Part shown: positions 8,407 to 35,212 of the stretch, piece by piece | How the letters are laid out: every line of letters begins with the position of its first letter | How positions within the stretch are numbered: the first letter of the stretch is position 1 | DNA from: Bryopsis sp. KO-2023 | Taxonomy: Eukaryota > Chlorophyta > Ulvophyceae > Bryopsidales > Bryopsidaceae | Assembly: GCA_030272585.1 (NCBI GenBank) | Contig: BSYQ01000011.1 | Coordinates: forward strand, 3,658,001-3,722,000 | Direction of reading: 5' to 3' | DNA length: 64,000 nucleotides | Translations under genes and position numbers: made by a program | The notes under the pieces: generated by a model | Seen by the model: only the letters and a program-made list of their open reading frames with translations | What the model was told of the DNA's origin: nothing | The model's database searches: none

Positions 8407-11165
8407 CTCCTTGTGACCTCCAGAAAGAGCCGAAACCATCAAGATTCCAAGTTCGTGGGCAGGAACCCAGTAAAGAATTTAGACAGCACCACACTTCATC
8501 CCTCCCTGCCTTTGCAGATATAATGCACCCTTAACGGCACCTACAACCCCCCCCCCCTTTTTTTTAATATAGAGTTTTTATATTCCCTTCAGGCAGATTT
8601 CCGAGTTTTTGATTTTACACAGGTTTCTATTTTCCTCCTCCTCGGTCCAAGGGTGTTGACGAAATCGTTCCAAGAGCAGTCCATTCCGCATCCGGGTATC
8701 TCCACCGGAACCCCATCGTAGTTCAGATTGACATAAAACAAATTAACGTCGCCACTTTCGTGAGCCCTCAATTCCAGTACCACCCTGGACACGAAATCCG
8801 GAAAGTGCCAATTGACCACCCCCAGAACAGACAGGAGCGCTGCCACCGTTGAGTCATGGGCGGAATAAAGCACCATGAAGTCTGCGTTGTTAATCAAACA
8901 CATGAGCGAATGCTGAGTTTTCCCACAGGGAGCGATTTTAATACTGGAGCATGCCATATAATCTTGTGAAAGTCTTATTTTTTCTTTGTCGACTTGAAGA
9001 AAATATCTAATTTGTGTTTGGGGAGAGCAAGGGTCAAAAAAAGGACGTGTTTTGACAGCCGGAGCCATGCAGCGAATCCAGACCTTGTGTTTTTGATTCT
9101 GTTGATGGTTGTGGAAGGTGAGCTTGCATTCGTTCCATTATCTCATCCAATAACATGCCAGCAGCGAGGGGGCCTCTATCCACGCTGTATCTGAAAAACA
9201 AAAGCTTCTGGAGTGAGTAAGATTCTGGAATCTGATCGAACATTAAAGTTCAGCAAATCCCTTTTTGATAAAAATTGAACGTTTTTCGTAAAACCTTACT
9301 CTTGGTGCCAAATCCAAGTTGCAACCTCCGTCAATTTCGGGACGAATTCGCCTTTGTATCGCTTGTCAGAGGGGTACTCCATTCCTTCTGTTTTAACACA
9401 TACAGCATTGTTCCAGACACGCTCCATCCACTGAAAATAAAAGGAAAGAATCAAAGTTTATTAAATAACAAAGCAAAAATCGGCCAACCGATATCAAAAT
9501 CTGTTTAATTTTTACCTTCAGATCAATTTTTGAGCATTCTGGAGGGTCTATTTCTTCTCGCAATGTTGTTCCATCCACATCTGAAATCAGACATACCTCA
9601 TTCCCCCCAACCACCTGTGACATGCACGGGAAAAAAAATAAAAAAAAAATCTTATGCCATACATTTATCGCACTTTTTCAAAACAAGTTTTATAATTTCT
9701 TGTTATTATTAAATACCGTGGTGTGGTCAAAGAAACCTTGTCGAAAAAGATATAAAAACGCCACTTACATCCTCGATCATGTCCAATTCCCTTTTGAATA
9801 GGGTTTGCGGAGCGTTTAAAAACTGGCTCGAGTTTTTCAGCCTTGCGACTTGGTCCAGCCATCCTTCGCACTCTTCAAATTGAAGCAGCAACGGCCTCTG
9901 AAAAAAATAATAAAAAACTGGAGAAGTCTGCTTTCGAGTAACTGACAAAGAAACAAAAAACAATTCCTATGGGTGTGTATCACCTGTGACGATTGCACTT
10001 TGGGGATTCCATTTGGGACGGTTTGGATGCCCATGCATGCGGCTGCGCATTTCATAGAGGATTTGAGGCCTTTTTCAGGCCTGCATTCACAATTTCCAAC
10101 CTCCAGGTTTGGCTCCACCCCGTTGTCTGAGAAGAGGCCTAACAGCACACCGTGTGCCGTGTCGACTGTTCTGTCAATGTGAGTCGAGAATATGGAAATC
10201 GGAGTTGAAGTCATTGGGGGTGCCCCCTGGGTTAAATCTGGCCAGTAGATTTTGCGCAATTTCTGGCCGAGGGAAAATGCCTAGGGCAACAAACAGAAAA
10301 GGTGAATTAATTAATTCTCAGATAAAAGGGGAAAAAAGCAAAAATATTTTTCAAAGAAACACCTCCCACAAAAAAGTCACACCTGTTCCATACCCTTGGG
10401 TGTCAATGCTCCCAATCGAACATCCCAATCCACAACGTCATTCTCAAAACCAAACTTCCACAAGCCGCTTCTTGCCCCTGCAACCCCACTTCAGAGATAC
10501 AGACATTTTCTTAAGACAATTATATTTCCAGGAGGCGTTATTCACAGGGGGGGACGACTTTGGGCCAACAGAAAAAGACGTCAAAATGGAACCCCAGTGG
10601 CAATACGATTTTCCACGACGTGGGTTTCTCCAAGAGAGGTCCAAGGTTGGAAAACCACACCTCACCGTGCCTGTGCACAATGGCCGCGAATTTCACAACC
10701 CCAGCATCCCTGCGTCCCGTGCGAAGAGTGGAAACGATGCCGCCCTTCGCCAAGTTGAACAGCACCAGCACGACGCATGCAGCGATCACGTACTTCGCGA
10801 CCTTCGCCCTGTCTTCCACGCAACTCAGCGCCTGTTTCCACGCAGGGAGGACGCCTTTTTCCGATCGGTCCCTGCTCGCTGCGGACATGCTGGTTCCTGT
10901 GAGGAAAACTGCCCTGCGGAGGTCCAACAGAGTGCGGCGTATGGTGAATCCCAGAGAAAGCGAGTAGGCGGCGTCTTCGCCCCCCAATACCGCTTGTCGA
11001 TCCTGCATGTGCTGCTTTCGTTTCACGCCCGCGTTTCTTGGCAGAATTCTAGAAAAGGAAGACACAACAGAAAACACTCATCCCCCGTACCCAAACCATC
11101 GTAACGCTCCCAATAACGCTCGATTGGCGTTACCAGGGAAGGGCCAAACAGGAGAAACGCCAGTG
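8407..11165. repeat. left arm of a 2.76-kb inverted duplication
   Basis: This segment is the near-identical reverse complement of 31271-34025. The match starts at the base after a G run (8407) and ends near CCAGTG at 11165. Over the gene the two copies differ in length by only a few bases, all in introns. The arm holds one complete acid phosphatase gene, its 3' flank and about 160 bp of its 5' flank. I found no terminal inverted repeats or target duplications at the borders. Confidence 0.95.
8589..11008 (-). CDS. membrane-anchored histidine acid phosphatase, left copy
   Basis: A clade-2 histidine phosphatase, predicted to hydrolyse phosphomonoesters through a phospho-histidine intermediate. 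Exons in transcription order: 11008-10666, 10477-10383, 10280-9984, 9897-9769, 9614-9516, 9430-9300, 9190-9084 and 8992-8589; phases join to give 534 aa. Residues about 69-90 form one hydrophobic helix after a basic N-terminus, a type II signal anchor, so the catalytic domain should face a secretory lumen or the outside. The catalytic RHGAR (113-117) is split by intron 1, and the proton-donor HD pair lies in YSAHDSTV (446-447). The architecture resembles PXYLP1-type Golgi phosphatases, but the substrate cannot be told. It differs from the right copy at only a few residues (for example Ile/Val next to HRHG, Leu/Met in exon 4), with no stop or frameshift. An in-frame extension upstream of Met1 stays open. 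Confidence 0.9.
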
Positions 11166-13008
11166 GCAGCTGCAGCCCCGCCAGGGAGAGAATTTGGCGG
11201 ACCTGGGCTCCTCGTGCAACTCGTCGAGGTCAAGGTTGTCCTGTTTCGTGTCTTTGAGCCGCCCCTTGATCACCATCGTCACTTTTCTTCTAGCCCATCT
11301 CCAGATTGATACCCCTCTTGCAAACTTTGAAGAATTCCATTCCTGCTCAAATTGGAGCCGTCGCCACCTCTGGACCATCATGATATTTTTTTATTTTTTT
11401 CTGATATTCCTGTAGAGATCTGTTGCTGTTTTCCAACTTTCTTTTCGATGGAACCATGATGCTTCTCCAGTTGGACCAATATGTAAGAAACAAACTGTTA
11501 CTTCAGCCATACAACAAACAGCATATCGAAGCATACAGAAAGACCTAGATACAACCAAGAAGAAGACTATCCTTGCTGCCAAGATCCGATCTGTACTATA
11601 AATAATCTCATTCAATTGGGTCTGACACAACAAAACTTAAAATGAATGTGGAGGATCCCATCTCTTCCAGGGGGATCAAAAAAACACATCTTTTTTTTTC
11701 TCTTTGCAGGAACCCTTGCACCGGCTGTCAGTGGAGGAAATGGGCAATCCAAGCCCAGTGGTGGATATTGGAGTGTTTGAAACAGATATGTTAATCTTGG
11801 ATGCTCCTATGATGCATCAAGGGAGCGGCCGCCACAAATAGAAAATTATTTCATTATTTTTGTTTCTGGGTTCACAGTTTGACTCATTTTTCGTTTCTTT
11901 CAGAATGCATTGCTGCATGTGGAGTCCACATTGTGGACTCCCTGGAAAAAACCCACCACCACCACCTAATTCGACATGGGAAAGAAAAGCCAAAATAGTT
12001 TCACGGCATTATTACCATCTGTCATATCAAAGTTAGGAATAACTCCAGTCAAGATTGTTGATTTTTAAGTCCATTGTTGGATCAACACAATACAGCCCCA
12101 GCTCATGAGGAAGAAATTTTGTACGAGAATATTACATTATTATGGCTTGGGATTGGGTTCCATATTCTTTTTTCTTACAAAAAGGACTTTGATACTCCAA
12201 CATTTTGATGGAAAATTGCAAATCAAATAACACGAATTACATCACTACATATTCCTTAAAAGAAAAAAAGAAAAAAAGACGAGGGAAAAAAAAATCGAAC
12301 AAAAAAAAAACACGATTGTTTTTTTTCTTCTCTATTTTTTGGTTTTTTCCCTGACATTCTATACACACCATGCAAACCTGACAAAAAAAATCCTATCATC
12401 ACCTCATCTCTTTTTCTTTCCATGGTTTTCTTTTCTTTTTTCTTGCTCCTTTTTTGAAACGAAACGAAACCAGATCCACCCTAGAAACATATCAAAAGCA
12501 AAAAAAAAAAAAAAAATTCAGATCTCCCTCTATTACTAATCTTCTCTGGCGATTCTTTTCTTTTTTTGTCTCTTTCGCTTTTTTTGGAAAGCTATTTTAA
12601 CAAATGGGCAAACAAAATCAGACAAAAAAAATCCAGAAGAAAGAATACTAGCGTGATTTCCTGTCTTCTCTTCTTTGCCTGCGAACTGACCGAGGGCTGA
12701 GAGGGAATTCATAAGCCCCTTGGTAAGAATTTCTTACAGGAGTTTTCTGCAGAGAAAACGAACAAGCAAGAAAATTGTTTAGTCAATCGTCCACTTGGAT
12801 TTGTTTGTGTGAGAACAAGGGACGATCAATTTCCTCCCAAGCTTTCTTTTTCTTTTTCTCAACAGGAATTTTTCTGAATCAACACAGCAAAAAGAAGTGG
12901 AAGGTTTCAAATCCACCTCCTCCCTTTAAAAAAAAAAAAGACAATGGTTTGCATGAATTGCACGACTAATTTTCTTTCAGCTAAAAAACGTAAAGTCAGT
13001 CTTTCCTT
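11166..13008. other. repeat fragments and a possible orphan exon
   Basis: 11252-11376 is an inverted copy of 42674-42799, and 11756-11800 is a direct copy of 42867-42912. A possible plus-strand terminal exon at 11710-11841 follows a good ctttgcag acceptor and reads EPLHRLSVEEMGNPSPVVDI, continuing to a stop. Its middle, VVDIGVFETDMLIL, recurs as VVDIGMFNADMLIL at the second site. I do not recognise the product. From 11842 to 13008 I see only T- and A-rich DNA. Confidence 0.5.
11252..11376 (-). repeat. dispersed 125-bp repeat, copy 1
   Basis: The reverse complement matches 42674-42799 at high identity, with small indels. In one frame both copies read GGD(G/V)SNLSRNGILQ, so it may be an exon remnant of a Gly/Ser/Asp-rich protein that was copied and rearranged. 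Confidence 0.85.
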
Positions 13009-14930
13009 TCAGCCCTCGGCCTGAGCTGCTTTCTTGGTTAAAGGTGGATAGAGAGACATCAAACCAAAAAAGGTGAAAAAAACAAAAGGAAAGGAAAGGA
13101 TGGGGGAATGACTCACCTCCTCCATGTTTTGGTTTTCGTTTTGATCATTTCCTTCCCCCAATTCGCTTCCTGAAGTTTCGTCCGATTCGCTGTATTCGAC
13201 TTTCACGTCTTTTCTCGCCTTCTTGGCCCCTTTTCTCTTTGCACGGAGCGGGGTGGTTCTTTTTCTCGAAACTGCTTTTTTTCGCTCCAGATTTTTTCTA
13301 CGCAGTTGAGTTTCGTATTCGGGATGCCGTGTCTTGTATTCTTCCATTTCTCGATCGAAGCGTTCCACATCATCTTAGAAAGGGAAAAAAAAAACGAGTG
13401 TGAAGAATGGAGACTTTGGCTCCAAGGATCTTGCTGTTTCACTGTTAATGCTGGGCCGGTAGTAGGTCCACATGAGGCTTCCAGCCACAATAATGCAATA
13501 AAATAACCCCCCCCCCAAAAAAAAAATAAAGAAAGAAAGAATTCAACAATAATTGTGGATTGCTGAATTTCTTTTCTTTTTTCAAAAAAAACATTCCACC
13601 AAACAATCGAGTGAAGTCTGACATGCTGCGCTGCGCTGAGCGACAGAAGTGTGACCTCCATTGAAAGTGTGAGAAGGTTCCGTACATAATTTCTTCAACA
13701 TTCTTCACAAAACTCTTGCAACCCTCAAATACGAACTCTGCTTTTGTTTTGATTTTTATATTTTCCTGGTTTCATTGCAGGAGGAGAAATTTAAAAAAGT
13801 TAAGAAACTATATACGTATATATATCTATCCATAGCAAGAGTTTATTTACCTTTGTGCAGAGCTTCAAATTTTGTCTTTTCTTCCAGAGATATCCCTTCC
13901 CAATATTCCATGAGGTCAGGTTTCATAGCCAAGAATTCCTCCCTGCAGAAAATAAACAGCAAAACCCTTGTAAGTGCATAAACATATTGACATAGTGGAT
14001 GGCTCACATACACCTTTCCGCCTCAATCCAACACATTTCCAAAATAAATAAATGAAATATAAAAAAAATAAAGTAAAGAAAATCTGCACATATAATCTCT
14101 GGGGCCCTCTCACCTGGTGGGCTCCATCGCCAGATCTTTAATTCTTTCTTCAAAACAAAAGTCTTTGGCTGTTTTGGAAGGTTTGGGCAGGGGTTCTTTT
14201 TGTGGGCCTTTGCCTCGATGTCCAGCCAGGCCGCCTTGCTTCCAATGTGCTTTTTCTGCCCATTCTGCCCCATACCCAGTTGTTATTGTTATTCTTTCAG
14301 AAAAAAACACAACCTCTGTCCAATTCTCCTAAAACGAAGGAGCTAGCTACAGTTTTTAAATTTGCGTTTGAAGTGATGGGCCCTTGAGCCTCTACGCAGG
14401 ATAAAAACTCAAGAAAAATGGGGTGGAAAATGATGTCTTTACTAAAAATGAGTGGGGTTCATTACTGTTCAGAAATGGGGAGGAGACATTTTGAGAGGTT
14501 CGGGGTTGAAAGACTTTCGCATCGGACATAGGCTGGAAAAGAAAACTGGCCACAGAAAAACGATGCTATGGTTTCTCCTTCAAGTCTTATTATTCTTTCT
14601 TTCTAATCTTCCGGGTTTTTTTTATTTTTTTCAGTGCCACTGTGTTTGACAGGGGGGGGGGGGGTCAATCTATAGGAGCAACAGAGCAGCATTCTGAAAG
14701 GAAATAAAATTTTCCTTTCCAGCGAGGAAAAAGGCATGGAAAAGCTGGAAGAACAGAAAGAAAAAAGATACGCACGGATGTTGCGACGGTCTCCCTCTTT
14801 CTCTCTCACCCATGAGAGGTTCGATGACTTGCTTGGGGTCTTTCGAAATTTTCCGGGGGGCGTCTTCTCCATAGAATTTGAATGGAGTGAGCGGTTTCAT
14901 TTTCGTAGCTTCCCCTTCGCCAGGCTCCAT
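13009..14930 (-). CDS. HMG-box-like protein
   Basis: Predicted exons: 14930-14810, 14264-14114, 13942-13851, 13373-13117 and 13032-13009; all phases agree, giving 214 aa. The clearest region runs from KPSKTAKDFCFEER through EYWEGISLEEKTKFEAL to DDVERFDREMEEYK. It has the HMG-box layout: an aromatic helix 1, a W-x-x-(I/L)-(S)-x-E-E-K helix 2, and a D-x-x-R-(F/Y)-x-x-E-M-x-x-Y helix 3. An earlier segment, KPLTPFKFYGEDAPRK, looks like the start of a second, degenerate box. The tail is Lys/Arg-rich then Ser/Glu-rich (EYSESDETSGSELGEG), as in HMGB proteins. A nuclear DNA-binding or chromatin role is likely. The exon 1/exon 2 junction uses a weak pyrimidine tract. The start lies 275 bp from the divergent NDUFB7 start. 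Confidence 0.78.
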
Positions 14931-15205
14931 TTTATTTTTTTTCTTGCGACAAAAGTGAGCGTCGGAAAAAAAAAAAGAAAGTGAACGCCCTTCAGTCTTC
15001 CCCCACCAGCTCTCGGGGCAGATTTTGTGTTTGGCTGCAAAATGCCAGAAACTGAAGAAAAAAATTGTACAGGCTGTACAATTGATCGATTCGAATGGAC
15101 TCAAATCGGAGTTTGAAAAAAAAAAAGCCACAGGGAAGTAGTCGTCAGAGACGCTCTGCAAATTTTCGGTCGTCGAGAAAGCGAGGGCACAAAAAACGAG
15201 AAAGG

Positions 15206-16003
15206 ATGTCGCAGCACTACACACCGCCGCCAATGAAAGCTACCCAGGTTTGGCGTCGATCAAGAATATGTTTCGTTTGGGAAAGAGACGAGCAGAAGTC
15301 TGGACAAATCCCTCCCCCTCCTCTTAAAAAAAACATCCATTTGTTGGAAATTATCGCTTTTAGGGAAGGCTGCGCTGTTGCCTCGTTGGAAAGCCAATAA
15401 CTGAAGGAATGCAGGTGTAGGTGCATTATTTTTTTCGATAAAAAAAAAAGCTGAAAAAAAAACAACACTTGGCCAAAGAGCAAAGGAAAGAAAGAGAACT
15501 GCATTTTGTTGTTACTTTTTCTTAGGATGCACTGTGCTTCTTAGAATCCTTTATATGTCATTTTTTTCCCTCTTTTTCAAACGGGCTTTATTGAAGCTGT
15601 AAACCTCAATATAGCGCACCCACACCAGATGCATTCTGCATCCACCTTTTGTCTCAATTCTCGAGAAAAAAAAGAAGAAGATAGAATCTCTCTAAAAACA
15701 ATAACCCCAAAGTCCTGTATTTTTCTTCTTCACTTCGTTTTTTTCTTTTCTATACTAGTGGCAATTTTTTTTTTCTTTTTTTTTTTTTCTCTCTTCCAGG
15801 AGGAAATGAATGCAGCGAAGCTGCAGATGGGTTGGCGTGATTTTTGCGCGCACATGCTGATTCCCTTAAACGAGTGTCGGCAAAAGAACCTCTATTTGCC
15901 CTGGACGTGCAAGCATGAAAAGCACGTGTACGAAAAATGCCAATACAAAGAATACAAAAAGAGGGTGATCGCCATGCAAAAACAAAAGGCAGAATCCCTG
16001 TAA
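15206..16003 (+). CDS. NDUFB7: mitochondrial complex I subunit NDUFB7 (B18)
   Basis: A small accessory subunit of NADH:ubiquinone oxidoreductase, on the intermembrane-space side of the membrane arm. Exon 1 is 15206-15247 and exon 2 is 15800-16003, joined in phase to give 81 aa. The twin CX9C motif of the CHCH fold is complete: CAHMLIPLNEC and CKHEKHVYEKC, the substrate pattern of the Mia40 import pathway. The stretch LIPLNECRQKNLYLPWTC matches plant-type NDUFB7 closely. It is shorter than the human protein (137 aa), which has longer ends. The intron is 552 bp and ends in a long pyrimidine tract. A larger open frame starting at 15629 reads through the intron and is not the gene. Confidence 0.93.
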
Positions 16004-17415
16004 CTGAAATCTAAACGATTTCTCTCTCTCTCTTTCTTTCTGTTTTTTTTTTTTTTTTTTGAAAGAGGAAAGCAATCAAGGGAGAAGAAAGAAAAAAAAA
16101 AAAAACGAGGGAAGAAAAAGATGATAACCTTTTGGTGGGTGGGTGTGTTTTTCGCTTTTTCGAGCAGAGGCTGGATAAATGTCTGCTTAAGTTCCATGAA
16201 AAAAAAAAAACAGCGAAAAATATGCCAGCCTTATGGGAAAAAAAGAAACAGAGAAAGAAATCCTTGGTATGTAACAAATTTGCCGATTTTTTTTTTCTTC
16301 CCCTCCCACCAGGAAAGTGATGCCCTGGTGATTTTGGAGTGTCTTGTTGAATATGGGTTGTTTGTACAAGAGCGTTTACAGAGGAGCAATAATTTCGGTC
16401 GTAGATTTTTACTTTCCCTTGTCTGGCACGCTGCGTGCGTTTTTTTTTTTTTTCAAATCACAGTTTCTGGCCGAGATTTTCTTCTTCGATTGATATTGAA
16501 AATAGAGGGGGGTGTTCTGGGTTAGGTTGTAACGTATTCGGCTTGGGAATCAACCATTTTTTGTTGGGTGCGCCTCCCCTTGTTTTCTGCCCGGCCATCC
16601 CTTGGGGATTAGCAAGCAAAAGGCTACGGCACCGTAAAAATACTGGCTCAGATTTGATGAGAGACATGTTGGGTTGCTCATCTTATCTTAAAAGAGATCT
16701 CTGGGCTGACCCTCCCAGGTTATGTCTAGCCTGGCTCGCGTTTTCCTGTTCAGAGCGTTTTCTCTTTTACTCCTGTACAGGTCAGTGCAAAACGGCCAGT
16801 CAAAAAGCTTCTTGCATTATGTATGATGCTTGACTGGAGGGTGTGGTTTTCCCCCATGATGGACCTCTTTCTCGTTGGGAGTTCTTCTGACTGACTTCAG
16901 TAACACGATCCAGATATCTTCATGGGTTCGAAATATGCAACCATGGGGGCAAACGAAGTCCCCCCTCCATCCAGCCAATGCACCGCCAAGGCCCTTTTCA
17001 GAAGGGCAGCTTTTCCCTTCTATCGCAACTTGTAATCCTTCTTTCCCTTTTCTGAAATGCATGTGCATTCATAGCAACGAATCTGCTGTTCGGGATTTCT
17101 TGGGCAATCACCATCCACACAATGAATTCGGTCATGAATCTCTTAGTACTATTAAACCATCCGTGCTCATACATGTCATACACACAAGGTCAACTCTGTG
17201 CAGACAGCTTCCCCAGTATTCCCCGCATTGTTGGGGTCGACAAGCTCCTCCACAGATATAGACCTTCGTTCTTTCCACCCTCCCCACCCCCCCCACCCCC
17301 CCAAAAAAAACAGAACTGCACTCGCTTACTAATACACATGCATACGCCCCACCCTCCCTTCCTTTTTACACACACTTTCATTCACACACTTTCGTTGGAA
17401 AAATTGAAAAACGTA
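16004..17415. other. intergenic region, no gene recognised
   Basis: T-rich and G/C-run DNA between NDUFB7 and the kinase. A short plus-strand frame at 16313-16405 (ESDALVILECLVEYG) follows a good acceptor and might be a stray exon, but nothing supports linking it to a gene. Confidence 0.4.
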
Positions 17416-19073
17416 TTATGCCCTTCTGCTGCATTTATTGTTTGGTTGCGTTGGGCCGGCGGCTATTTCCTCGTTGCTGGTGGGATCCCCACAGTCGTAA
17501 GCTTGATCAACACCTCTTTTCTTTTTCAGTCTATCCAAGGCCAACATAGCACCCTGTTGCACCACCAAAAATAAAAGAATAAGCAGCAAAAAATTCCAGG
17601 AAATAAGCATCAGCGAGGGCACCTCGTTGGGGCGAGAAGAAAAAAAAAACTAACTAAAAGATGTCAAATAAACAGGCAAGGATTCCGAATTCTGCTGTTG
17701 AAATACCTCCAGAGCATCGGCTGCCGATGGTCTGTCATTCGGATCCTGGTTCAGGAACATGTCGATCAATTCTTTGTAGGGTGAGGGTGGCAGACTTTTC
17801 CAAAACACTCGACACATCAACAGGCCCAGGTTGAAAATATCCAGGGCAGGCTCCACCGACATTCCTTCGACATACTCCGGTGGCCTGCACTGATCAACCG
17901 CCAACCAACCAAAACTATTTTTAGAAAACCTGACCCCAGGGGGCAGGGGTGGGGCGAACTTCGACCCCAGTGACAAGGAGCTCAGTTTATTCCAGATTTC
18001 AACAGGCTGATGTAAGGATTCGATGTCTTACATTCGGGAAAAAAAATGAAAATAAAAAAAAAATAAAACAGAATAGACAAGATGCTTTGCGAGAACCCGA
18101 TGACATTTCTTATCAAAAGCATTGCTCGCCTTTGTTCGGCCGCTGTAATAGGACAAGGATTGCCGAATTCCGTCGCCACATCGAAATCGATCAGCACCAA
18201 TTTTTGTCCCTTAAACACGACATTCCTTGCGACCAAATCGCAGTGTGCGATTCGGGCAGCATGCAGGGCAGTCAATCCTTTCAGAATGTCACGCATCATT
18301 TCGAATGCCCTCACGAGCGAAGGCTGGTCGTTTTTCGTCAAAAAATACTCCAAATTATCACCTAATCGCTCCGTCACCAAAATATGCTCTTCCTCTGCAG
18401 CCGACCCCCCCAAAAAAAAAACAAATAAGCAAAACCACCAGCCCACATTACTCGCTTGCATACAGGAGGAGCTGCACAGTGCCCCAGCCAAGATGGATTC
18501 CCATATGAATGAATGAATGATTAATTTACATTAGGCAAATTTGCCCAACGAAGGCCGCCCACAACGAGGTGATTTAGCCCTGCCCTTAGTAAAAATCCAG
18601 CTCAACACAGTTGGGCTCCCATAATATAACATATTATATAAACAAAAAACATATTTGGTAATATATTCGTTTCGTAACCAAATACGATGCACACCACAGA
18701 AGAAGTAAACAAAAAAACTTTTTTGAGCGCTCCTCAAAAACTACAAAAGCGGACCAGAAAAAAAATAAAATAATAAAATAAAGTAAATCAAATTGCTTGA
18801 AATAAAAAACCACCCACCTACAAAATCAACAACTGAGACAATATTGGGATGCTGGACCGCAGAAAGGATTCTGGCTTCGTGACGAATTGCCTGGATGCTC
18901 CGGGATGGCGCCACAGGAAGTGGAACTTTCAACACAACTGGCCCTTCACTGCATCGGGCTGCTTTCAACACAGCTATTGAGCCTCCCAGTTCCGTCGAAT
19001 CATCTACTACATACTCTTCTGGAATGGTTGCTGTGAAATGATCTCTGACGACGAGTTTTCTAGGAGTTTCCAT
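17416..19073 (-). CDS. protein kinase with DFD in place of DFG
   Basis: An eukaryotic-type protein kinase. Exon 1 (19073-18818) carries the N-lobe, with VVLKV (Lys 49) and a helix-C Glu in AIRHEARIL (Glu 66). The next exon starts at 18394 and has HCDLVARNVVF (catalytic loop, tyrosine-kinase-like spacing) and LIDFDVATEFG (metal-binding DFD). After an intron the C-lobe gives CRPPEYVEG (APE-like), DIFNLGLL and NQDPNDRPSA; a donor follows at 17706. A final exon, 17553-17416, begins GAMLALDRLKKKRG. The acidic residues for Mg-ATP are present, so activity is plausible despite DFD for DFG and a weak glycine loop. The intron between about 18160 and 17990 is not resolved, so the activation segment and exact length are uncertain. 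The family is unassigned; it looks TKL- or TK-like. Confidence 0.75.
18503..18582 (+). repeat. 80-bp dispersed element, copy 1
   Basis: Matches the reverse complement of 53898-53977 at high identity. The core contains the perfect palindrome GGCAAATTTGCC, and one end reads GGGCTAAATCACC on the opposite strand. It may be a short non-autonomous element. It lies in the intron between kinase exons 1 and 2. Confidence 0.8.
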
Positions 19074-22636: not shown

Positions 22637-22774
22637 ATGTCGAGTAGGGAAACGGCTTTTGGATTCGTCCCACGCCAAGTGGTGACCGACTTGAAAGATA
22701 TTGGCAATTGGAAGGTAAGTGCATTCGTAGGAGCTTCAACGCTCTCCACTATGAAAAAAAATAAAAAAATAATA

Positions 22775-22805
<31 letters not shown>

Positions 22806-25800
22806 TAATATTTTTTCCTCTGCGCAAGACGAAGTGATTCCAGCGCGGACATTCAGGTGCGAGCATGTGCTATCGATGCACTCCACAAGTCACTTCTCGA
22901 TGTGAGCCACAAGAAAAGTATATTGGATTCGCTTCCCAACTTTTTGAGTTTCCTGATGACGCTGGTGGCGGATCCCAACTTCAAGATATCCTTGTCAAGC
23001 ATGCAAATAATTGGAGATCTCGTCCTTAAGGTTGGGAAATATGTCGAGCAGCACATCGGGTATGATCCTATTCCATCCCAGGAATGATTTTTCTTTTCGC
23101 ACACGATTGAACAACTCGTCCACAAAAATCAGTGCACCCTGTTCCCTCCCATTAGAGAACTTGACCAATTTTTTCTTTTGTCGGCAGCTGATAACTAGTG
23201 GGCGGCGTTGTCTAGGGTCGTCATTCCCAAGCTCATTGAAAAACTCGGTGACAACAAGATCATGGTCCGACAGGCTAGTATTCAAGTTCTGAGGAACATG
23301 CTGAAAGTCACCAGCCCCCGCCCTGTTCTCGAAATGCTAGTAGAGGGACTCAAACACAGTAGCTGGAGAATAAGAGAGGAAGTTGTGACTATACACATCA
23401 TGGTGGGTACATATTTTCTCGCTTGGAGGAATTATAATCAAAACATGGCACATCACTCTAGCCTGAACACAGAACACAGAAGGAGTTAAGCAACTTTCTT
23501 TAGGTTTTTCAGGGTATCTTTTTTTGACGAACGTATGAGCGCTATGTACTTGTTGTCTTGAATCACGTCCGCACAGCATGTCGATTTTCCAGGTGATGCT
23601 TACGGCTGACAAGGATCGCATCAATTTCGTAGACATGGCTGCTGTCTTTGTGGAGAGCTTTAATGATCCCAAGGACAGGGTGCGCACGATCGCCCTTGGT
23701 GGTCTTGGTGTTATCGATTCAAAGCTGGGTCGAGCCGACTGTCTCGACTTGATGAATCTCGCTGGTGGTACCCCAGAGATGAGAAAGGCATTGGATGAAC
23801 TCTGTAAGACAGCAAGACTTCCTTTCATCAGCCGAGAAGGATTTGTGGAATATGAGGTGAGGAATAGCCGACTTTTTTTGAACAAATCCAGCTTTGAATA
23901 TGAATTCAGTTTGCATTTTTCTTTTTTTGTGGCACGACGGAAACCAAACATCGCCCCACGTTCAGTTCAAACTGTTGGCGTTTCTGATTAGGCCTTGTCG
24001 TCAGGGAAGGAGTCGTTCGCTGAATCCCCCAGCAGAAGTGGTAGCATGCACTCGAAAGGAAAGATTCCTTGGGAAATACCTGCGCCCAGGGGTCACAGTA
24101 GAAATGGTCCCACTGCTCAGAGTCGGGGGCAAGTGACGGGTGACTTTGGAATTGCCAAACACCTGCTGTCAGCCCCAAAGATTGAAGGCCATAAATCACC
24201 CAACAGATCAAATAAAGGAAACACGATGTGTGAGGATCTGCTCCAGGTTCCTACAACCCAAAAACCAGTGCAAGGTGAGCAAACATCCCAATCTTTCACA
24301 GTGAAAGTGTGTGGTGGTTACGTTTTTCCTGAACGAAGGCATGGTTTTTTATCACAGGCCAATCGAAAATTGCCAAGCAAGGAACAGAAACGGGACTCAA
24401 TCTGGTAGAAAGGTTGAATCGAATGCTACAATTTGAGGACAGTCTCGACGCCCACACAAAATATAACCACCCACGCTCGATTCAAGGGAACGTGAATCAA
24501 TGGATGCCAGGTGATGTTCGGTGCAAGTGACAAAAACGCCAAGAGTTGGTGAATTTGGACATTCAATTGAAAGATTGTCCCTATTCGGTTGGCTGTAGAG
24601 GGAACACCAAGCCCCACATCTCCCAGCGGCAAAGGACAGCGTAGCGCTATCCAACAGCTCGATCGCTTGCTTAAGGCAAGGGAATCGGGAAGTATTGACA
24701 GTTGCTGCTCCCTGGACAGCATACTTGACGAAAGGTATTTCAAAGTGTGCAGAGCATCTTGTACATCTTCTTGGAGTTGCTTCCATTTTGATCGTCAATC
24801 GATCCAAACTATTTGCACTTGACCGAAAATTGAAGGAGGAGCGTCTCAATTAACCTTCAAGGAGAACATTGGCACTATCTTTGCAAGTGGCTTTGTGGTA
24901 TTTTTAGTTCTGTAACTGTTACTATCTCAGCGTGATAGTGTCTGGCTTCCCCAGGGACGAATCGAGCAACAGTAGACTCGCGACATGGAGCCCCAGCAAG
25001 GAAGAGAGGCTGGAAAAGCTAAAGCGGCGTCAACAAGAGTCTCGACGGGTGCATAGCGCCAGCGCCGTTCTGCAAAGACCAAATCTACTGGATAGTGAAA
25101 TTGGAGGCCCAGGGGCTTCGCCCAGCGCAAGGGTATCTCAGACACAGCAACAGTCTCGTGACTCGATTTCGGGAGCACCAACAGTGAATATACTCGCAGG
25201 GGCCAGGTGGTCTCAAAATGGATATACGGACGACTTGGACAGCACCCCAGAACATTCCAACTCCCGCATAACTCATTCAAAAGCCAGGCACAGACGATCC
25301 GGCAGTCCTTTATCACTGGACGTGAACTGGAACGAAGGGAGCTCAATGCATGGACGAGTTTGCCGTCAAGATACTGTTTGCAGCGGGAGTGACAGTTTCG
25401 AACAATCCCCAACTACTCCGTTCGGCAGCCGAGGTGGAAGCAGGACGACTTCATTCTTTATGGATAAAGGAAAAGGGGTGGAGGAATTGTCTTTTGAGGA
25501 GCTCACACCTTGCATTGATCCGGAAGCAACAATGCGGTCCGTTCTGCAACGTCTGTCATGCGCTAACCATGCGAAGCGGAAAGAATTGAACTGGCAGGAC
25601 CAGAATGATGCTTTGAATGATGCTCGACGGCTTATTGGCCATCACCCTGATGTCGTGAGATGTTTTCTTCACGAGTTTGTCCTATCAGCACTTCCCGCGG
25701 TGGATCAGTTGCGGAGCTCGACATCCAAAAATGCTCTCATTCTATTCCAGGAGATGTTTCGATCCCTCGGTAGACTTCTCGATAGAGAATTAGAAGAAAT

Positions 25801-27691
25801 CATTCCCACACTGTTAAAAAAATCTGCCGAGGTCTCAAATGCAGGTAAAAAACCCCAACGAGCCACTGCCTCGCGTCTTCATTATTTGTTGTGCAGGACA
25901 TTGACGAGATCCTTTTCCAAACCCCGCATTTTGAGCTGAGAATACTGTTGATGTCCATCGATCTGTCACGCAGGACGGGATAGTTTTCTTGCATCTGAAG
26001 CCGACAAAGCGTTGAATCTCATGGTGCAGCACGTCTCTGAGCTTAAAGCGATCAGTACGCTGGTATCTTTGGCGAACCACAAATCCCCCCACTTTCGAGC
26101 AAGAGTTGCAGCTAATCTGGATGACTGTCTCGAAACTGTCAGCAGCAGGCTGAGTGCCTCCGGTCACGTTGGGCTCATCGAGAAAGTTTTCAAGGCTGCG
26201 GTTGGATTCCTTGAAGAGGGGTCGTTAGAAACAAGGACTCGGGGGAAAAGAATTATATGGGATATTAAACATTGGCTCAATAGCCGCAGCTCCTTCGGCC
26301 GACTCGTCGAGCAGCTGGGATCTGAAACGAAGAAACGAAAAGTCTCAGAGGTCGTCGAAAGCAGCAATGGGCCACCTCCTCCTCCTGTTAAACCCGTGGC
26401 CCGATCGCAAGTAAGTTGCAATCCAAGTAGCATCCGCTGCTCACGAGTGAAGAATATCGACTTCCTTAAATACAAACGTGACAACAGGCGCTGAGCACTT
26501 TGAACTAAAAGTTGGAATGACTTAGGGCTCCAGACAACTCGCCAGCCAAGGGAGCTTCTCACCTTTGACACCATCCATTACCCCTCCCTCGCGCACATCA
26601 CTCTGCAGCAGCGGCGTGGAGAGCTATGACCAGCGCAGCCCAGGACAATCCTCCACCAGCGAGACTCGCCATCATAGGCTCCTGAGGAAAGGAAGCTCGG
26701 AAAGCTCAGAAACCGGTTCTCACCGATCATCTTGTCGCCCCCCCCCTCGTCCGCCTATTGCACCAAATTGCTCTCGAACGGTGTCACAAGATATCGAAGA
26801 TGTTGAAGCATCAGGAAAGCTCCAGGATGCCTTGAACTTAATATCATCCAAGGATTGGAGAGAGAGGATGGTGTGCTTGAAAACCATTGGCTCGATCACA
26901 TCCCGCCTGACCAACGTCCCTGAAATAATGCTCCTCTCATGCATGGATCAGATCACACATCGCCTCAGTGACGGAAACTCAAAAGTCATTGTTAGTGCGC
27001 TCGAGGTATGCCGCGTTTTGATAGCTTGGATCGCGAAGAATAAAGGCATAATACGTTGGGGCGAGTACTAAGAATGTGCTGATGTCTCGCAGACTTTGAC
27101 GTCCCTTTTTGGCGGTCTGGGAGATCGGCTTGCTTTTTCCCTGAACACACTTGTGCCGGCACTTGCTTCAAACCTTGGCTCCACAAATGAAAAAATCCGG
27201 TTCAGCGCCTCAAACGCAATCGATCAGCTCATGTCTGCGGTTGATCACGTCTTACTTATTCAGGTGCTTTGGGTCGACTCTAATTGAGCTGTTCGTCTGT
27301 CCTGAATTCCTGGCCATACTAACTCGGTTATATTTCTCAAACGATGCAAATGTGTCTGTTTCAGAATTTCAGCCACTGTGTTGGCCACGGAAATTTGAGA
27401 GGGAAGGCGGTCCTACTCGACAAGTTGCAAGACATTGTCGTGAGTGTATACCCTCGGAAGCCGCAACTAGTGATTAAGCATACCCTCCCTGTCGCGTTTG
27501 CAATGCTTAATGAAAGGGGAGCTGATGTTCGGGCTGCCAACATGCAAATGGTCGAGACTTTGGCTGGTCTCATGGGCGAGGGGCTTTTGCAATATGCTGG
27601 GAACCTATCCAAACCTAACAAGGAACGTCTGAAGGAAATTCTTAGGGACAGCGGGGTAGCGTTAGGGTATCGAATGAGTCAGCAGCGATAA
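22637..27691 (+). CDS. TOG-array protein of the TOGARAM/crescerin type
   Basis: Predicted to bind tubulin and regulate axonemal microtubules. Twelve exons: 22637-22714, 22857-23059, 23216-23402, 23593-23856, 23992-24274, 24358-24510, 24599-24734, 24955-25844, 25974-26410, 26526-27005, 27093-27263 and 27365-27691; all phases agree, giving 1202 aa. Three HEAT/TOG-like regions are visible: residues about 1-240 (including VVIPKLIEKLGDNKIMVRQA), about 600-870 (including ALPAVDQLRSSTSKNALILF) and about 965-1202 (including HRLSDGNSKVIVSALE). They are separated by Ser/Pro/Arg-rich linkers, with PPPPPVKPVARS after the second. The N-terminal and paired C-terminal arrangement is that of crescerin/TOGARAM1, although metazoan members have four TOGs; CLASP is the alternative. 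The next gene downstream is another cilium-linked family. Confidence 0.88.
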
Positions 27692-28394
27692 AGTTTGGGA
27701 AAGCGCCAGGCATGTGCGCTTTGTATTTTTTGCCTTCGGAAAATTCTGTTTTGGGAGCTTCTTAGTCAGCTGAATGAGCTTGATGTTTTTTTCGGTTTTG
27801 TTTTTTAAAGTTCTTTTACAACGTACAAATGGATTTTCTGGGCAGGTGTTGAATATCTCGAGTGGGAGCATCGACCATCTCATCTAGGTTCAATTTTTTT
27901 CACTGATTTGGTAGAAAAATCCGGTGGTCCAAATCTGACAGCACTTTTTCTATTCTTTAAAAAGTACTTTCGTCTGGAGGCAATTTCGGCACAATCTCTG
28001 AACTATCTTTGTGTGCCAGTCCTGATACAACAAACATTTTCGGCCAGCTCTTTCAACCCACCAAAACAATTTGAATAATCTCAAGAGGGGTGGCGATTAT
28101 GCATCGCCTCCACAATATAAGAACAAGTTTGCTTGTTTTATTATGCGATACATCCACAAGCGTAAAGAGTTCAATGTCGATGCTCCATTGTAGTTATATG
28201 ATGGATGCTCATTGACCTTCCCAATTCGGTCGAAACTTTTTTTCCTAATTGGGTCCCTAAAAAGCAAAACGATGACGGTTAGTTCTGCATGGAATCCAAT
28301 GACGGGGAAAATCCGACGGTTAGTTTTGGGTAGTATCTGGTCGTTTAATTAATAGCGCTTTTGAGTGACAATATTTGTGCTTGACTTGAGAGCA
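27692..28394. other. spacer between TOG gene and CYB5D1
   Basis: AT-rich 3' flank of the TOG-array gene followed by the presumed promoter of CYB5D1. No exon or RNA gene recognised. Confidence 0.4.
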
Positions 28395-29701
28395 ATGGCA
28401 CCGGTAAGATCCGCGAACAAGGAAGTGCTTCTGTTTGATTGGCTGTCATTTGTGGTCGCAAATCTCATCATTTTCATGAAATGAACTCGGACGAATGGCA
28501 AAACCTTCATAAACTTGCACAAACCCTAGTTCTTTTGCGCCACCTTTCAACAATTTTTGGTTTAAAACCTTAATGGAGTAATTGTCTTGCTACATTGGTT
28601 GCGATAGGGGCAACTGGCCCCTCAGGCGATATGTGATTCTGCTTGTTCTTGTTCTTGTTCATGTTTGATTTTCCTTGTGTTGCTGACACCCATTTTGGGG
28701 CTGCTAGGTGTTAACACAAAAGCGGCGGTTCTACACTCCCTACGAAGTCGCCATCCACAATTCGCCAACAGACTGTTGGGTCTCATTTCTTGACAAAGTT
28801 GTAGACGTCACGGACTTGATTCAGGCAAGAACAAACACCATGCAGTTTTGTTCTTTCTCGACTTTGACGTCTCAGCTTCGATCGAACGTCAACAAGAACT
28901 CCACACCCATAGCATGACGCACAAATGTTACAGGCCAACGAGGGTGCGCTCGCGAAACCTCTGCTGGAGGCGGCCGGCACTGATGTTTCACATTGGTGAG
29001 GCTTGTTTGTGTAGAGCGTTTTTCGTGAGCATACAGGCTGTATGCATTTTCATGTTTGGCTGACCTGGGCGGAACTTTAGGTTCGACGCTGAAACTGGAG
29101 ACGTGAGGACATATATCAATCCCGAGAACAATATCGAAACTCCTTATTGCCCACAGGTAGCTATTGGGCGTGCCCGCACAAAACCCATGTCGATTCCCCA
29201 ATTAAAGACCATTTGCTTCCTGTGAGAACAAGCTAACCAGGCATCCAACTCTGATGTTACAAATCCTCTGTGCTCAAGGGGCGCTTCATACATGTGGGGC
29301 CCTCATACCCTGCATCCGACTGGGACGCCTGCTACACGGTGCCGTGGTGGAAAGATGTGAAGTATAAGGTTGGAAATTTGTCTAAAAAAACTCGGGTCAT
29401 CCGCGTAAAGAACGTACTGACCGGCCAAGAAGATAAAATGGAGGTCCCCAGCGAAGAGACCGTGGAGGAAATCCAAGAGAGGTATCTGGAGCTGAACTGG
29501 CACGCTCGGAGTTACACGATCAAAGGCCTCTCCCAGGACCACGACGGGAAGCTTAAGTTCAAGGAACTGGACCTGAAGAAGACACTCGATCAAAACAATG
29601 TTATTGATGAAGCATCAGTTTTTGAAGATCACAACCTTCCAGCCGACCACTATCTACCCGTCCTCCAAATGTATTGGGCTGACGATCTCACAGTGGCTTG
29701 A
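28395..29701 (+). CDS. CYB5D1: cytochrome b5 domain-containing protein 1
   Basis: A cilium/flagellum-associated protein in the animals and algae where it has been studied. Exons: 28395-28403 (encoding only Met-Ala-Pro), 28708-28824, 28934-28995, 29081-29156 and 29279-29701. The total is 228 aa, the same length as human CYB5D1. The b5-like region runs from RRFYTPYEVAIHN and CWVSFLDKVVDVTDL to GTDVSHWFDAETGDVR. The second heme-ligand His is in SHWF, while the usual HPGG first-ligand motif is absent (ALAKPLLEAAG), as typical for this family. The conserved C-terminal part has GRFIHVGP, PWWKD and the final MYWADDLT. Intron 2 has a GC donor (CAG|gcaag at 28825). The nine-base first exon is inferred from the ATGGCACCG|gtaag context and could be wrong. 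Confidence 0.92.
28825..28933 (+). other. GC-AG intron in CYB5D1
   Basis: The exon ends CAG and the intron begins gcaagaac, the classic GC-donor consensus. The acceptor is atgttacag. Both flanking frames are fixed by family homology (DLIQ then ANEGALAKPL), so the boundary is firm and no nearby GT donor keeps the frame. Confidence 0.85.
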
Positions 29702-30932
29702 GAGTGTGAAGCAGCGGTCACCCACACATCTTCCTACTCTTTTTTTGGGACCGTAAAAAATTAGGTTTCAGGAATTATTTTCCAATCCGGGAGTGGCAAG
29801 CAAAAAGAGGAGATTTGTATCTCTGTGAGGGACCGTTTTACTTTTCGTTTTGATTCTGCGAACATTTTTTGAAACGGGACTGTAATCGCACTTTTGCGCC
29901 CTTCAATGGCGAAAGAAACACTTCAGAAATTTCTGAACAGAACGCGCAACTGAACAAAACTTGCATAGTAAGTTTCAAGTACACACGAAAAAAATCAAGG
30001 CTTATTGTTTATGTTTGAATGATAGTGTCCACATAACTTAGCCGTCGCCAGAGGGGCGTGATACTCGTTAGAGTCAAGACCCCCTCTTTAATTCATCAAC
30101 AGTGGCTCCTTCGCTTGCAAAACGATCAAATCCACTTGACAGACATATGCTGTGGGTAGACCCTTGAACTCACGTTCCAACGCCCATCAGAGAATTAATT
30201 CAATCTTCATGTACTCTGGCAAGAGAGGATCCTCTTGGGCTTTGACTCAGCCGAATTTTACACATTCGACTGAGTGATAATTCACAAAGAGCTCAAACAT
30301 GAAACCAAAGCACACACGATTCTGCAGCAGAGGAACCTCCCCACCACCCTCTTTTGGTCGGACAAAAGAGTGTCCACACAAAGATCTAAAGAATTTGAGA
30401 TTGGAATAAATTGGATCAATTTTGTTGATGAAATCGAAAGGAACAACTTGTTGAATTGAATTGAATTGAACTTCCACGAGGGTGTTTTTGACTCGAATAG
30501 AGTGCAATGCGGCTTCTGTTCATGTTGATTCATTTTCTTTTGATAGGGGCTAGACAGTTGTATGTACCTGGGATTTATATTTGTGAATAAAAACGGACAT
30601 GTGTAATCAGCTTCTGTTCTGTTGTATGTACCTGGGATTTATATTTGTGAATAAAAACGGACATGTGTAATCAGCTTCTGTTCGGATTAAATTTTGTTGG
30701 TCATCGAACCGAATTTTTTTTTCTGACCAAAGTTGAAACTGAGAGCGCAAGCGATAGGAAGGCAATCTTGGAAGGTATGTTCATGTCCTTTGGGAAGAAA
30801 CTTGTCGAAACACCTTAGGGGCCAGTGGATCGAAAATGGGACTTAAACAAAAAAACACACAGAATTTCGAGCGGCAATGGACTCGGAGCGATTGGCGGCG
30901 CCATGTTCGTCACGTTGCTGAACGGGGAATGA
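29702..30932. other. 3' flank of CYB5D1 with a tandem duplication
   Basis: AT-rich, with a 64-bp tandem duplication at 30557-30683 and an imperfect hairpin near 30246-30275. No coding sequence recognised. Confidence 0.45.
30557..30683 (+). repeat. two tandem copies of a 64-bp unit
   Basis: The unit starts GTTGTATGTACCTGGG. Copy 1 is 30557-30620 and copy 2 is 30621-30683, identical until the last base. This is a recent slippage or unequal-exchange event, or a collapsed read artefact. Confidence 0.95.
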
Positions 30933-31208
30933 CCCGAGGATCGCGCGATATATTGTGATATAGAGGATACCGCGGAATCGAGGCAAGCAAATAGACGTGA
31001 CGGAGTTCAAGAAAACATCGAATCCCGCGTTGAGGATTGGAAGAAATACACAACGGAAGAATTGAAGCGATTCCGCAGGAAGAGGAGCATCGAGCATGTC
31101 GTTTGCGCCGTGCGTCAAGGAATTGCCAAGCGTTGGAGATGTTTATGCAAGAGGACATCTGCGTATTTGAGAGTTGAGCTTAAAAAAAGTTCGTTGGAAA
31201 AGGAGTGA
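30933..31208 (+). CDS. uncharacterised basic open frame, possible exon
   Basis: A stop-free run of 92 codons without an initiating ATG, ending at TGA 31206-31208. It reads as a charged, helical protein (VEDWKKYTTEELKRFRRKR, then VVCAVRQGIAKRWRCLCKR). The GC content is higher than in the flanks. The minus strand is also open here, so coding status is unproven. It could be the last exon of an unseen gene. It ends 62 bp before the right arm of the inverted duplication. Confidence 0.3.
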   Translation, partial: PEDRAIYCDIEDTAESRQANRRDGVQENIESRVEDWKKYTTEELKRFRRKRSIEHVVCAVRQGIAKRWRCLCKRTSAYLRVELKKSSLEKE

Positions 31209-31270
31209 ATTCGACTTGAGTGTGCGAAATTTGAAGGTGGAAATTTGAAATTTGTCTGAGAAGCCCATGT

Positions 31271-34025
31271 CACTGGCGTTTCTCCTGTTTGGCCCTTCCC
31301 TGGTAACGCCAATCGAGCGTTATTGGGAGCGTTACGATGGTTTGGGTACGGGGGATGACTGTTTTCTGTTCTGTCTTCCTTCCCCAGAATTCTGCCAAGA
31401 AACGCGGGCGTGAGACGAAGGCAGCACATGCAGGATCGACAAGCGGTATTGGGGGGCGAAGACGCCGCCTACTCGCTTTCTCTAGGATTCACCATACGCC
31501 GCACTCTGTTGGAGCTCCGCAGGGCAGTTTTCCTCACAGGAACCAGCATGTCCGCAGCGAGCAGGGACCGATCGGAAAAAGGCGTCCTCCCTGCGTGGAA
31601 ACAGGCGCTGAGTTGCGTGGAAGACAGGGCGAAGGTCGCGAAGTACGTGATCGCTGCATGCGTCGTGCTGGTGCTGTTCAACTTGGCGAAGGGCGGCATC
31701 GTTTCCACTCTTCGCACGGGACGCAGGGATGCTGGGGTTGTGAAATTCGCGGCCGTTGTGCACAGGCACGGTGAGGTGTGGTTTTCCAACCTTGGACCTC
31801 TCTTGGAGAAACCCACGTCGTGGAAAATCGTATTGCCACTGGGATTCCATTTTGACGTCTTTGTCTGTTGGCCCAAAGTCGTCCCCCCCTGTGAATAACG
31901 CCTCCTGGAAATATAATTGTCTTAAGAAAATGTCTGTATCTCTGAAGTGGGGTTGCAGGGGCAAGAAGCGGCTTGTGGAAGTTTGGTTTTGAGAATGACG
32001 TTGTGGATTGGGATGTTCGATTGGGAGCATTGACACCCAAGGGTATGGAACAGGTGTGACTTTTTTGTGGGAGGTGTTTCTTTGAAAAATATTTTTGCTT
32101 TTTTCCCCTTTTATCTGAGAATTAATTAATTCACCTTTTCTGTTTGGTGCCCTAGGCATTTTCCCTCGGCCAGAAATTGCGCAAAATCTACTGGCCGGAT
32201 TTAACCCAGGGGGCACCCCCCATGACTTCCACTCCGATTTCCATATTCTCGACTCACATTGACAGAACAGTCGACACGGCACACGGTGTGCTGTTAGGCC
32301 TCTTCTCAGACAACGGGGTGGAGCCAAACCTGGAGGTTGGAAATTGTGAATGCAGGCCTGAAAAAGGCCTCAAATCCTCTATGAAATGCGCAGCCGCATG
32401 CATGGGCATCCAAACCGTCCCAAATGGAATCCCCAAAGTGCAATCGTCACAGGTGATACACACCTATAGGAATTGTTTTTTGTTTCTTTGTCAGTTACTC
32501 GAAAGCAGACTTCTCCAGTTTTTTATTATTTTTTCAGAGGCCGTTGCTGCTTCAATTTGAAGAGTGCGAAGGATGGATGGACCAAGTCGCAAGGCTGAAA
32601 AACTCGAGCCAGTTTTTAAACGCTCCGCAAACTCTGTTCAAAAGGGAATTGGACATGATCGAGGATGTAAGTGGCGTTTTTATATCTTTTTCGACAAGGT
32701 TTCTTTGACCACACCACGGTATTTAATAATAACAAGAAATTATAAAACTTGTTTTGAAAAAGTGCGATAAATGTATGGCATAAGATTGTTTTATTTTTTT
32801 TTCCGTGCATGTCACAGGTGGTTGGGGGGAATGAGGTATGTCTGATTTCAGATGTGGATGGTACGACATTGCGAGAAGAAATAGACCCTCCAGAATGCTC
32901 AAAAATTGATCTGAAGGTAAACATAAAACAGATGTTAATATCGGTTGGCCGATTTTTGCTTTGTTATTTAATAAACTTTGATTCTTTCCTTTTATTTTCA
33001 GTGGATGGAGCGTGTCTGGAACAATGCTGTATGTGTGAAAACAGAAGGAATGGAGTACCCCTCTGACAAGCAATACAAAGGCGAATTCGTCCCGAAATTG
33101 ACGGAGGTTGCAACTTGGATTTGGCACCAAGAGTAAGGTTTTACGAAAAACGTTCAATTTTTATCAAAAAGGGATTTGCTGAACTTTAATGTTCGATCAG
33201 ATTCCAGAATCTTACTCACTCCAGAAGCTTTTGTTTTTCAGATACAGCGTGGATAGAGGCCCCCTCGCTGCTGGCATGTTATTGGATGAGATAATGGAAC
33301 GAATGCAAGCTCACCTTCCACAACCATCAACAGAATCAAAAACACAAGGTCTGGATTCGCTGCATGGCTCCGGCTGTCAAAACACGTCCTTTTTTTGACC
33401 CTTGCTCTCCCCAAACACAAATTAGATATTTTCTTCAAGTCGACAAAGAAAAAATAAGACTTTCACAAGATTATATGGCATGCTCCAGTATTAAAATCGC
33501 TCCCTGTGGGAAAACTCAGCATTCGCTCATGTGTTTGGTTAACAACGCAGACTTCATGGTGCTTTATTCCGCCCATGACTCAACGGTGGCAGCGCTCCTG
33601 TCTGTTCTGGGGGTGGTCAATTGGCACTTTCCGGATTTCGTGTCCAGGGTGGTACTGGAATTGAGGGCTCACGAAAGCGGCGACGTTAATTTGTTTTATG
33701 TCAATCTGAACTACGATGGGGTTCCGGTGGAGATACCCGGATGCGGAATGGACTGCTCTTGGAACGATTTCGTCAACACCCTTGGACCTCGGAGGAGGAA
33801 AATAGAAACCTGTGTAAAATCAAAAACTCGGAAATCTGCCTGAAGGGAATATAAAAACTCTATATTAAAAAAAAGGGGGGGGGTTGTAGGTGCCTGGTTA
33901 AGGGTGCATTCTATTTGCAAAGGCAGGGAGGGATGAAGTGTGGTGCTGTCTAAATTCTTTACTGGGTTGCTGCCCAAGCACTTGGAATCTTGATGGTTTC
34001 GGCTCTTTCTGGAGGTCACAAGGAG
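31271..34025. repeat. right arm of the 2.76-kb inverted duplication
   Basis: Near-identical reverse complement of 8407-11165. It contains about 157 bp upstream of the phosphatase start, all eight exons and seven introns, and about 180 bp of 3' flank. Exon lengths are the same in both copies and splice sites are kept in both; indels are confined to introns and flanks. Confidence 0.95.
31428..33843 (+). CDS. membrane-anchored histidine acid phosphatase, right copy
   Basis: Paralogue of the gene at 8589-11008. Exons: 31428-31770, 31959-32053, 32156-32452, 32538-32666, 32818-32916, 33002-33132, 33242-33348 and 33440-33843, giving 534 aa with matching phases. A single anchor helix (AKYVIAACVVLVLF) precedes the catalytic RHGAR, completed across intron 1. 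The LGALTPKGMEQ and DRTVDTAHGVLLGLF segments fit the histidine acid phosphatase fold, and YSAHDSTVAALL supplies the second catalytic His-Asp. All splice sites are intact and the frame is open, so both copies appear functional. The few replacements against the left copy are conservative. Upstream, the in-frame extension RILPRNAG is also shared by the two copies, so an earlier start or a 5' exon is possible. Confidence 0.9.
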
Positions 34026-34767
34026 TTGGCACATTTAAAATTATATCAGTGCTGGAGATCTGATGTCAAAATAACCCTGATCCTGTGTGAAGTTAGCAGT
34101 CAGCAAACTGTGTGTGTTTTTTTTGCTGGAAATAACAATGAGTTGCTTTTCATTCCTTCCAAAATGAAGAGCTATCTGAAAAGTCAACTGTTACATAGCA
34201 TACGAAACCACAAAAATGAACTCTCAGTAACAAATGTATATTCGAATGCCTGCGTTCAGTTTTGGGAGGGACTGTTGAGGTAGTGTTCGAGGCAGGTGGG
34301 GATCTTTCTTGAAGCACCCTGTTCATGACGTCTGCTTTGAGTACTGCCAATAATAAGCACAAGCACAATCGAAAGAGGCCACCCCTCCTGATGTTAGAAC
34401 CAATACAACTCAACTCTCCAAAGTATTGATTTTAGCTAATGGGTGAAATACTTCCATTTCGGCCAGGATAATTTCTATACGCTCTATCTCTGCCTTTCGA
34501 GGCTGTGAGGGCTTAAACCTCCTGGCTGGGTAAAAAGGTTCTAACGTTCCTGGCTGGGTTTGCCTGGCAAACTTAACATACCTTGCAGGCGAGCAGTCAC
34601 TCGACCATTTTTCTGGTTCCAATTCCTTTGTCATGAGACGGGAGGTGACGCCGGCACATCGTATACGACATCTTCAAGATATTGCTGTCGCCTCATTGTA
34701 GGGATCCAAAAATGTGTAACTCCTTACGAGCAGGACACGAGATAGTGTTGTGTTTTTGTGGTGATTA
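33844..34767. other. 3' flank of the right phosphatase copy, no gene seen
   Basis: The first 180 bp belong to the duplicated arm. The rest (34026-34767) holds only short open frames without recognisable content, up to the first MITE-like element. Confidence 0.45.
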
Positions 34768-35209: not shown

Positions 35210-35212
35210 TTA

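Follow-up and report, generated by a model that had tools for sequence, protein, structure and literature searches.

Inverted gene duplications, and inversions flanked by them, are known kinds of rearrangement (PMC9731477, PMC4965816, PMC7584159). On chromosome XIV of Saccharomyces, as described in PMC9731477, gene-bearing inverted repeats of 4.2 kb are homogenised and re-invert the 24-kb block between them. In Drosophila subobscura, inversion E12 is presented in PMC4965816 as a case in which the whole gene Ugt58Fa, together with parts of its flanks, was duplicated by staggered breaks, and the same account gives a range of a few hundred bp to 8 kb for fragments duplicated in this way. The staggered-break model and its caveats are laid out in PMC7584159, a paper on inversion O7 that also describes two inverted Attacin copies whose spacer changed its orientation.

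Here we describe a further inverted gene duplication in the alga Bryopsis sp. KO-2023. It lies in a window of 64,000 nucleotides (contig C11, positions 3658001-3722000), and the genome compared was one assembly of one species (91.09 Mb, 28 contigs). Our literature search found no published work on this locus. As in the flip/flop region of Saccharomyces (PMC9731477), near-identical gene-bearing inverted repeats, 4.2 kb there and 2.76 kb here, surround 20-24 kb of unrelated genes. However, PMC9731477 reports both orientations and homogenisation from many strains and species, whereas the layout here comes from one assembly with arms of 98.3% identity. With E12 the locus shares an inverted duplication at both block ends that includes a complete gene with its flanks (PMC4965816). 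In the Drosophila inversions, as these papers present them, the uninverted arrangement is known and proves the inversion (PMC4965816, PMC7584159), while the arrangement here is known from one assembly; the size also differs, O7 spanning about 9.9 Mb (PMC7584159) and the block here 20 kb.

The inverted arms and their phosphatase genes

Self-BLAST of the window reproduced the near-identical inverted arms of the initial annotation at the same coordinates (Table 1). They align in minus orientation over 2,761 columns with 39 mismatches and 4 gap openings, and the statement that indels are confined to introns and flanks agrees with the alignment, in which two gaps are intronic, two lie in the 3' flank and none is exonic. 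Each arm was said to hold a complete eight-exon gene with the same exon lengths and conserved splice sites, and the models are intact in both arms: the exons measure 343, 95, 297, 129, 99, 131, 107 and 404 bases in A and B alike, all seven introns run from GT to AG in both copies, and the frames are intact over 534 codons up to one terminal stop. The few replacements expected between the copies amount to five amino acids. With this identity and two intact genes, the recent duplication of a whole gene is supported. The gene models were made by hand and without RNA data.

Table 1. Features of the locus, with positions counted in the window
Feature	Position	Strand	Remarks
Arm A, inverted repeat copy with complete phosphatase gene	8407..11165	-	98.3% identical to 31271-34025, inverted
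Arm B, inverted repeat copy with complete phosphatase gene	31271..34025	+	from self-BLAST; flanks without direct repeat of at least 9 bp
Phosphatase gene A, histidine acid phosphatase, 534 aa	8589..11008	-	hand model; exons 11008-10666, 10477-10383, 10280-9984, 9897-9769, 9614-9516, 9430-9300, 9190-9084, 8992-8589
Phosphatase gene B	31428..33843	+	hand model; exons 31428-31770, 31959-32053, 32156-32452, 32538-32666, 32818-32916, 33002-33132, 33242-33348, 33440-33843
Block between arms, 20.1 kb	11166..31270		NDUFB7 at ~15.8-16.0 kb, kinase domain at ~18.0-18.5 kb, CLASP/TOG-like domain in 24908-25936, possible CYB5D1 at ~28.7-29.7 kb
Young LINE-like repeat, 5'-truncated, microsatellite tail	20132..21329	-	target duplication of 12-13 bp (TTCTTGTGCTTG)
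Segment also on contig C6 (2794872-2797788)	5936..8855		98.0% over 2,931 columns; shares 449 bp with arm A (3' end of the phosphatase gene)

The predicted product of gene A matches PF00328 (E 2.9e-19, 70.1 bits, cut-off 23.6), and among solved structures prostatic acid phosphatases are its best sequence relatives (E 1.9e-15). RHGAR at residue 113, STHIDR at 178 and HD at 446 are kept in both copies. The profile match and the RHGxR and HD motifs assign the predicted protein to branch 2 of the histidine acid phosphatases, with which it shares the RHGxR motif, the second arginine motif and the HD motif; it differs from the prostatic type in an N-terminal extension of ~100 residues with one hydrophobic stretch. 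Since this stretch (at about 74-92) lies ahead of the phosphatase domain, the enzyme is probably a type II membrane protein, a topology that presumably resembles that of PXYLP1. A search of NCBIfam gave no match for the phosphatase, nor did the plasmid collection, which carries little weight for a eukaryotic gene. Decay of the second copy is not favoured, given the intact frames and the 5:12 ratio of replacement to synonymous changes.

Comparison of the four arm flanks gave no convincing match, the best between different flanks having E 0.26. The two 300-bp flanks of arm B share no direct repeat of at least 9 bp (one 8-bp match lies off the edges), and reading by eye revealed no poly-A tail at the arm edges. 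Genome-wide, the arm sequence is present in full twice; beyond that it occurs as a 3' fragment on contig C6 and a 51-bp intronic match on contig C7, and a protein search of the genome at E 0.001 returned no further phosphatase relatives. Self-BLAST of 274 kb of contig C11 (3458001-3732000) yielded 95 pairs at 85% identity or more, and those of at least 250 bp were inspected. Only the arms reach at least 1 kb at no less than 95% identity; the next longest pair measures 2,090 bp at 92% and belongs to a tandem cluster near 3461-3484 kb. For the rest of the window (1-8500, 11169-31267 and 34026-64000), the best 39-40 candidates scored for each part comprised the C6 copy, repeat families and diverged gene families, and repeats may hide other matches. 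Long copies of high identity in opposite orientation, with unrelated flanks and no repeat family, make the pair a recent inverted segmental duplication.

Several small features lie in or beside the arms. The 3' end of phosphatase intron 1 (10471-10521) shares 51 bp at 94% with C7:1716868-1716918, which by eye resembles an intron of an unrelated gene; the match is low-copy and introner-like. Just outside arm B, 34767-35632 is a cluster of young MITE-like elements made up of three adjoining short repeats of about 450, 262 and 164 bp. The second and third are palindromes, and some copies of each repeat occur elsewhere at 98-100%. Scrambled sequence adjoins arm A, where 11208-11376 and 11756-11799 correspond to 42674-42834 and 42867-42910, one of the two parts having inverted and the other direct orientation with respect to the copy at 42.7 kb.

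The block between the arms and the partial copy on contig C6

For the block genes named in the initial annotation, profile searches found NDUFB7 (PF05676, E 8.4e-29), a protein kinase domain (17985-18530, E 2.2e-9) and, for the TOG gene, a TOG-like CLASP_N domain (E 2.2e-6, 27.8 bits with the cut-off at 27). At 28708-28914 the proposed CYB5D1 has a Cyt-b5 match below threshold (19.9 bits where 23.7 are required, E 0.0008), and no Cyt-b5 match was obtained for the exon-like frame that follows (29255-29698). The block had also been called single-copy. This does not hold for the LINE-like repeat, of which at least 39 further copies exist at 98-100%, or for the short repeats at 11496-11632 and 30519-30686; besides the LINE-like repeat, the candidates scored include no block match of 1 kb or more. 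A comparison of ends showed that the LINE-like copies have a constant 3' end, ATTATG-like tail units and 5' truncation at many lengths, and the 414-aa open frame of the repeat matched neither Pfam nor NCBIfam. The ~137-bp repeat at 11496-11632 resembles a SINE or MITE and has dozens of copies that are 87-97% identical.

The segment that overlaps arm A recurs on contig C6, where the copy breaks off inside the last phosphatase exon. A perfect direct repeat of 103 bp (103/103) flanks it at 2794771-2794873 and 2797788-2797890, with one to three bases at its ends ambiguous and common to the joins. The sequence to the right of the insert recurs at many places on contig C11 at 94-100%, and four of these recurrences begin at the C6 join at 95% or more. 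All four paralogous sites that were fetched (4/4) run from the left flank through a single 103-bp stretch into the right flank and thus represent the insert-free target. This identifies the C6 copy as an insertion at the DNA level that duplicated a long stretch of its target, the outcome to be expected when the offset ends of a break are filled in. Long duplications of the target are a known feature of break repair; the 103 bp found here compare with 12-13 bp at the LINE-like insertion in the block.

The divergence of the C6 copy is uneven, with 28 of its 34 substitutions against the window in 5936-6849 (914 bp) and 6 in 6850-8855 (2,006 bp), and its one difference-free gap of 1,434 bp was reached in none of 20,000 shuffles. 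This pattern might reflect either later homogenisation of the last 2 kb or a donor that was another allele of the locus.

The sequence to the right of the insert (C6:2797788-2799800) forms a fragment family of many young dispersed duplications between contigs C6 and C11. More than eight places on C11 carry it at 94-100%, their ends varying, and another copy lies 8.4 kb upstream on C6 at 98%. Elsewhere in the assembly, an rDNA array with a repeat of about 12.45 kb occupies C24:7026-31992 on a 35.8-kb contig (RF01960, 1258 bits), and its 18S looks divergent by eye.

Divergence between the copies and order of events

The coding sequences of A and B differ in 17 codons, 12 synonymous and 5 replacing (dN 0.0041-0.0042, dS 0.030-0.034). 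Synonymous divergence (12 per 365 sites, JC 0.034) exceeds intron divergence (10/811 aligned sites, JC 0.012) by 2.7 times (Fisher p = 0.019, synonymous sites taken as 360). The initial annotation had named synonymous divergence far above that of introns as an argument against its view, and the result is mixed, being higher but hardly far above. The flanks (7/157 in the 5' flank, 5/180 in the 3' flank) differ more than the gene does (12/339 vs 27/2420, p = 0.0017). Perfect runs common to both arms extend to 465, 283, 240 and 234 bp. The longest stretch without an arm difference, 466 bp, was equalled in 598 of 20,000 shuffles, and a block-variance test gave no significant clustering of differences (3,021 of 20,000); the pattern allows for gene conversion between the arms.

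Had both copies been free of selection, the observed split into 5 replacement and 12 synonymous changes would arise with P 3.8e-5. With one copy free, five or fewer replacements among 17 would have P 0.002-0.005 across the four omegas tried for the constrained copy; both copies are therefore probably constrained, or else converted, for which 17 changes provide modest evidence.

In the 449 bp common to A, B and the C6 copy, private substitutions number 7 in B, 1 in A and 2 in C6, so that A and C6 are the closer pair. At face value the copying to C6 would then be the younger event, which would leave both A and B eligible as the original. We therefore dropped arm A as the proven original. Under later homogenisation of the shared stretch, the copying to C6 could date back as far as the split of A and B, and arm A, whose left flank C6 carries, would be favoured as the original. 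A plus-strand protein-coding gene ending at 8416, which would polarise the junction at 8407, could not be established.

Origin of the duplication

The explanation that we put first, with about an even chance of being right, is a young DNA-level ectopic duplication of one 2.76-kb segment by templated break repair. A chromosome break would have used the phosphatase locus as repair template, and the copied segment would have been sealed in reversed at a distance of 20 kb, through joins with little homology or none. Arm B (or arm A) might thus stem from the same kind of templated insertion as the C6 copy, with which copying by break repair is shown beside arm A. Both phosphatase genes would be active, to judge from their sequences, and the arms could afterwards exchange sequence and turn the block round. 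What speaks against a plain single duplication is the excess of synonymous over intron divergence, which it does not predict, and against frequent insertions here that the arms are the only such local pair in the 274 kb examined. A retrocopy made by LINE machinery was rejected: all seven introns are kept and the edges lack poly-A, which argues against any retrocopy, and arm B has no target duplication of at least 9 bp. Transposon capture was likewise rejected, as arm B lacks such a target duplication and no terminal inverted repeats were noticed at the edges by eye.

A different origin, tentative and somewhat unlikely in our estimate, is a single turn of the 20-kb block by breaks that were offset by 2.76 kb at one end and simple at the other; fill-in of the overhangs would then have placed the offset segment, whole gene included, at each block end as inverted copies. 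The predicted anatomy is present, in that each end of the block carries one copy of an inverted duplication and arm B has no target duplication, and, to judge from the 103-bp target duplication on C6, offset breaks undergo fill-in here; whole-gene duplication by staggered breaks also has a precedent in Drosophila as reported in PMC4965816. However, this origin needs an offset of 2.76 kb, while the sole offset inferred here is about 0.1 kb, and for the supposed inverted state of the block the present order is known from this one assembly. For arm B we favour templated insertion a little over staggered-break inversion because ectopic copying from this very locus is demonstrated by the C6 copy, although arm B, unlike C6, has no target duplication and the two events therefore need not share a mechanism. 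An assembly artefact, with one locus placed twice or the alleles of one locus joined in one contig, is highly improbable. A divergence of 1.4% is possible between alleles of some species, but the unrelated flanks, the 39 substitutions and the 4 gaps argue that the pair is not simply one locus assembled twice; the window has no Ns, and a third partial copy exists on C6 with clean joins of its own. We regard the arm pair as real.

It is plausible, by analogy, that the middle block can flip. A flip-flop region in the full sense, in which the arms exchange by gene conversion, crossovers turn the block now and then and both orientations exist in the species, seems unlikely to us; under it the duplication may predate what 1.4% divergence suggests. 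Arm length, spacing and the long perfect runs would allow exchange, the higher divergence of the flanks than of the gene and of synonymous sites than of introns is in its favour, and the layout described for Saccharomyces in PMC9731477 is closely similar. On the other hand, the arm differences show no clear clustering, selection could also explain the lower divergence of the gene, and one orientation is seen in one assembly. Quite unlikely is a further extension in which the phosphatase locus is a live exchange hub, with A and B continually converted, the block flipping as a counterpart of the yeast flip/flop region in an unrelated eukaryote, DNA donated to break repair elsewhere and the last 2 kb of the C6 copy homogenised anew with the side of arm A.

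The initial annotation did not include the staggered-break alternative, the LINE-like element inside the block, or the partial C6 copy together with its target duplication. As a clean example, the locus shows how DNA-level rearrangement has duplicated a complete gene, of which both copies apparently remain under constraint; it is accompanied by a sister event on another contig, where the target site is legible in both its occupied and its empty form. Should the orientation of the block prove polymorphic, the locus would add another independent case to the gene-bearing flip/flop regions exemplified by yeast.
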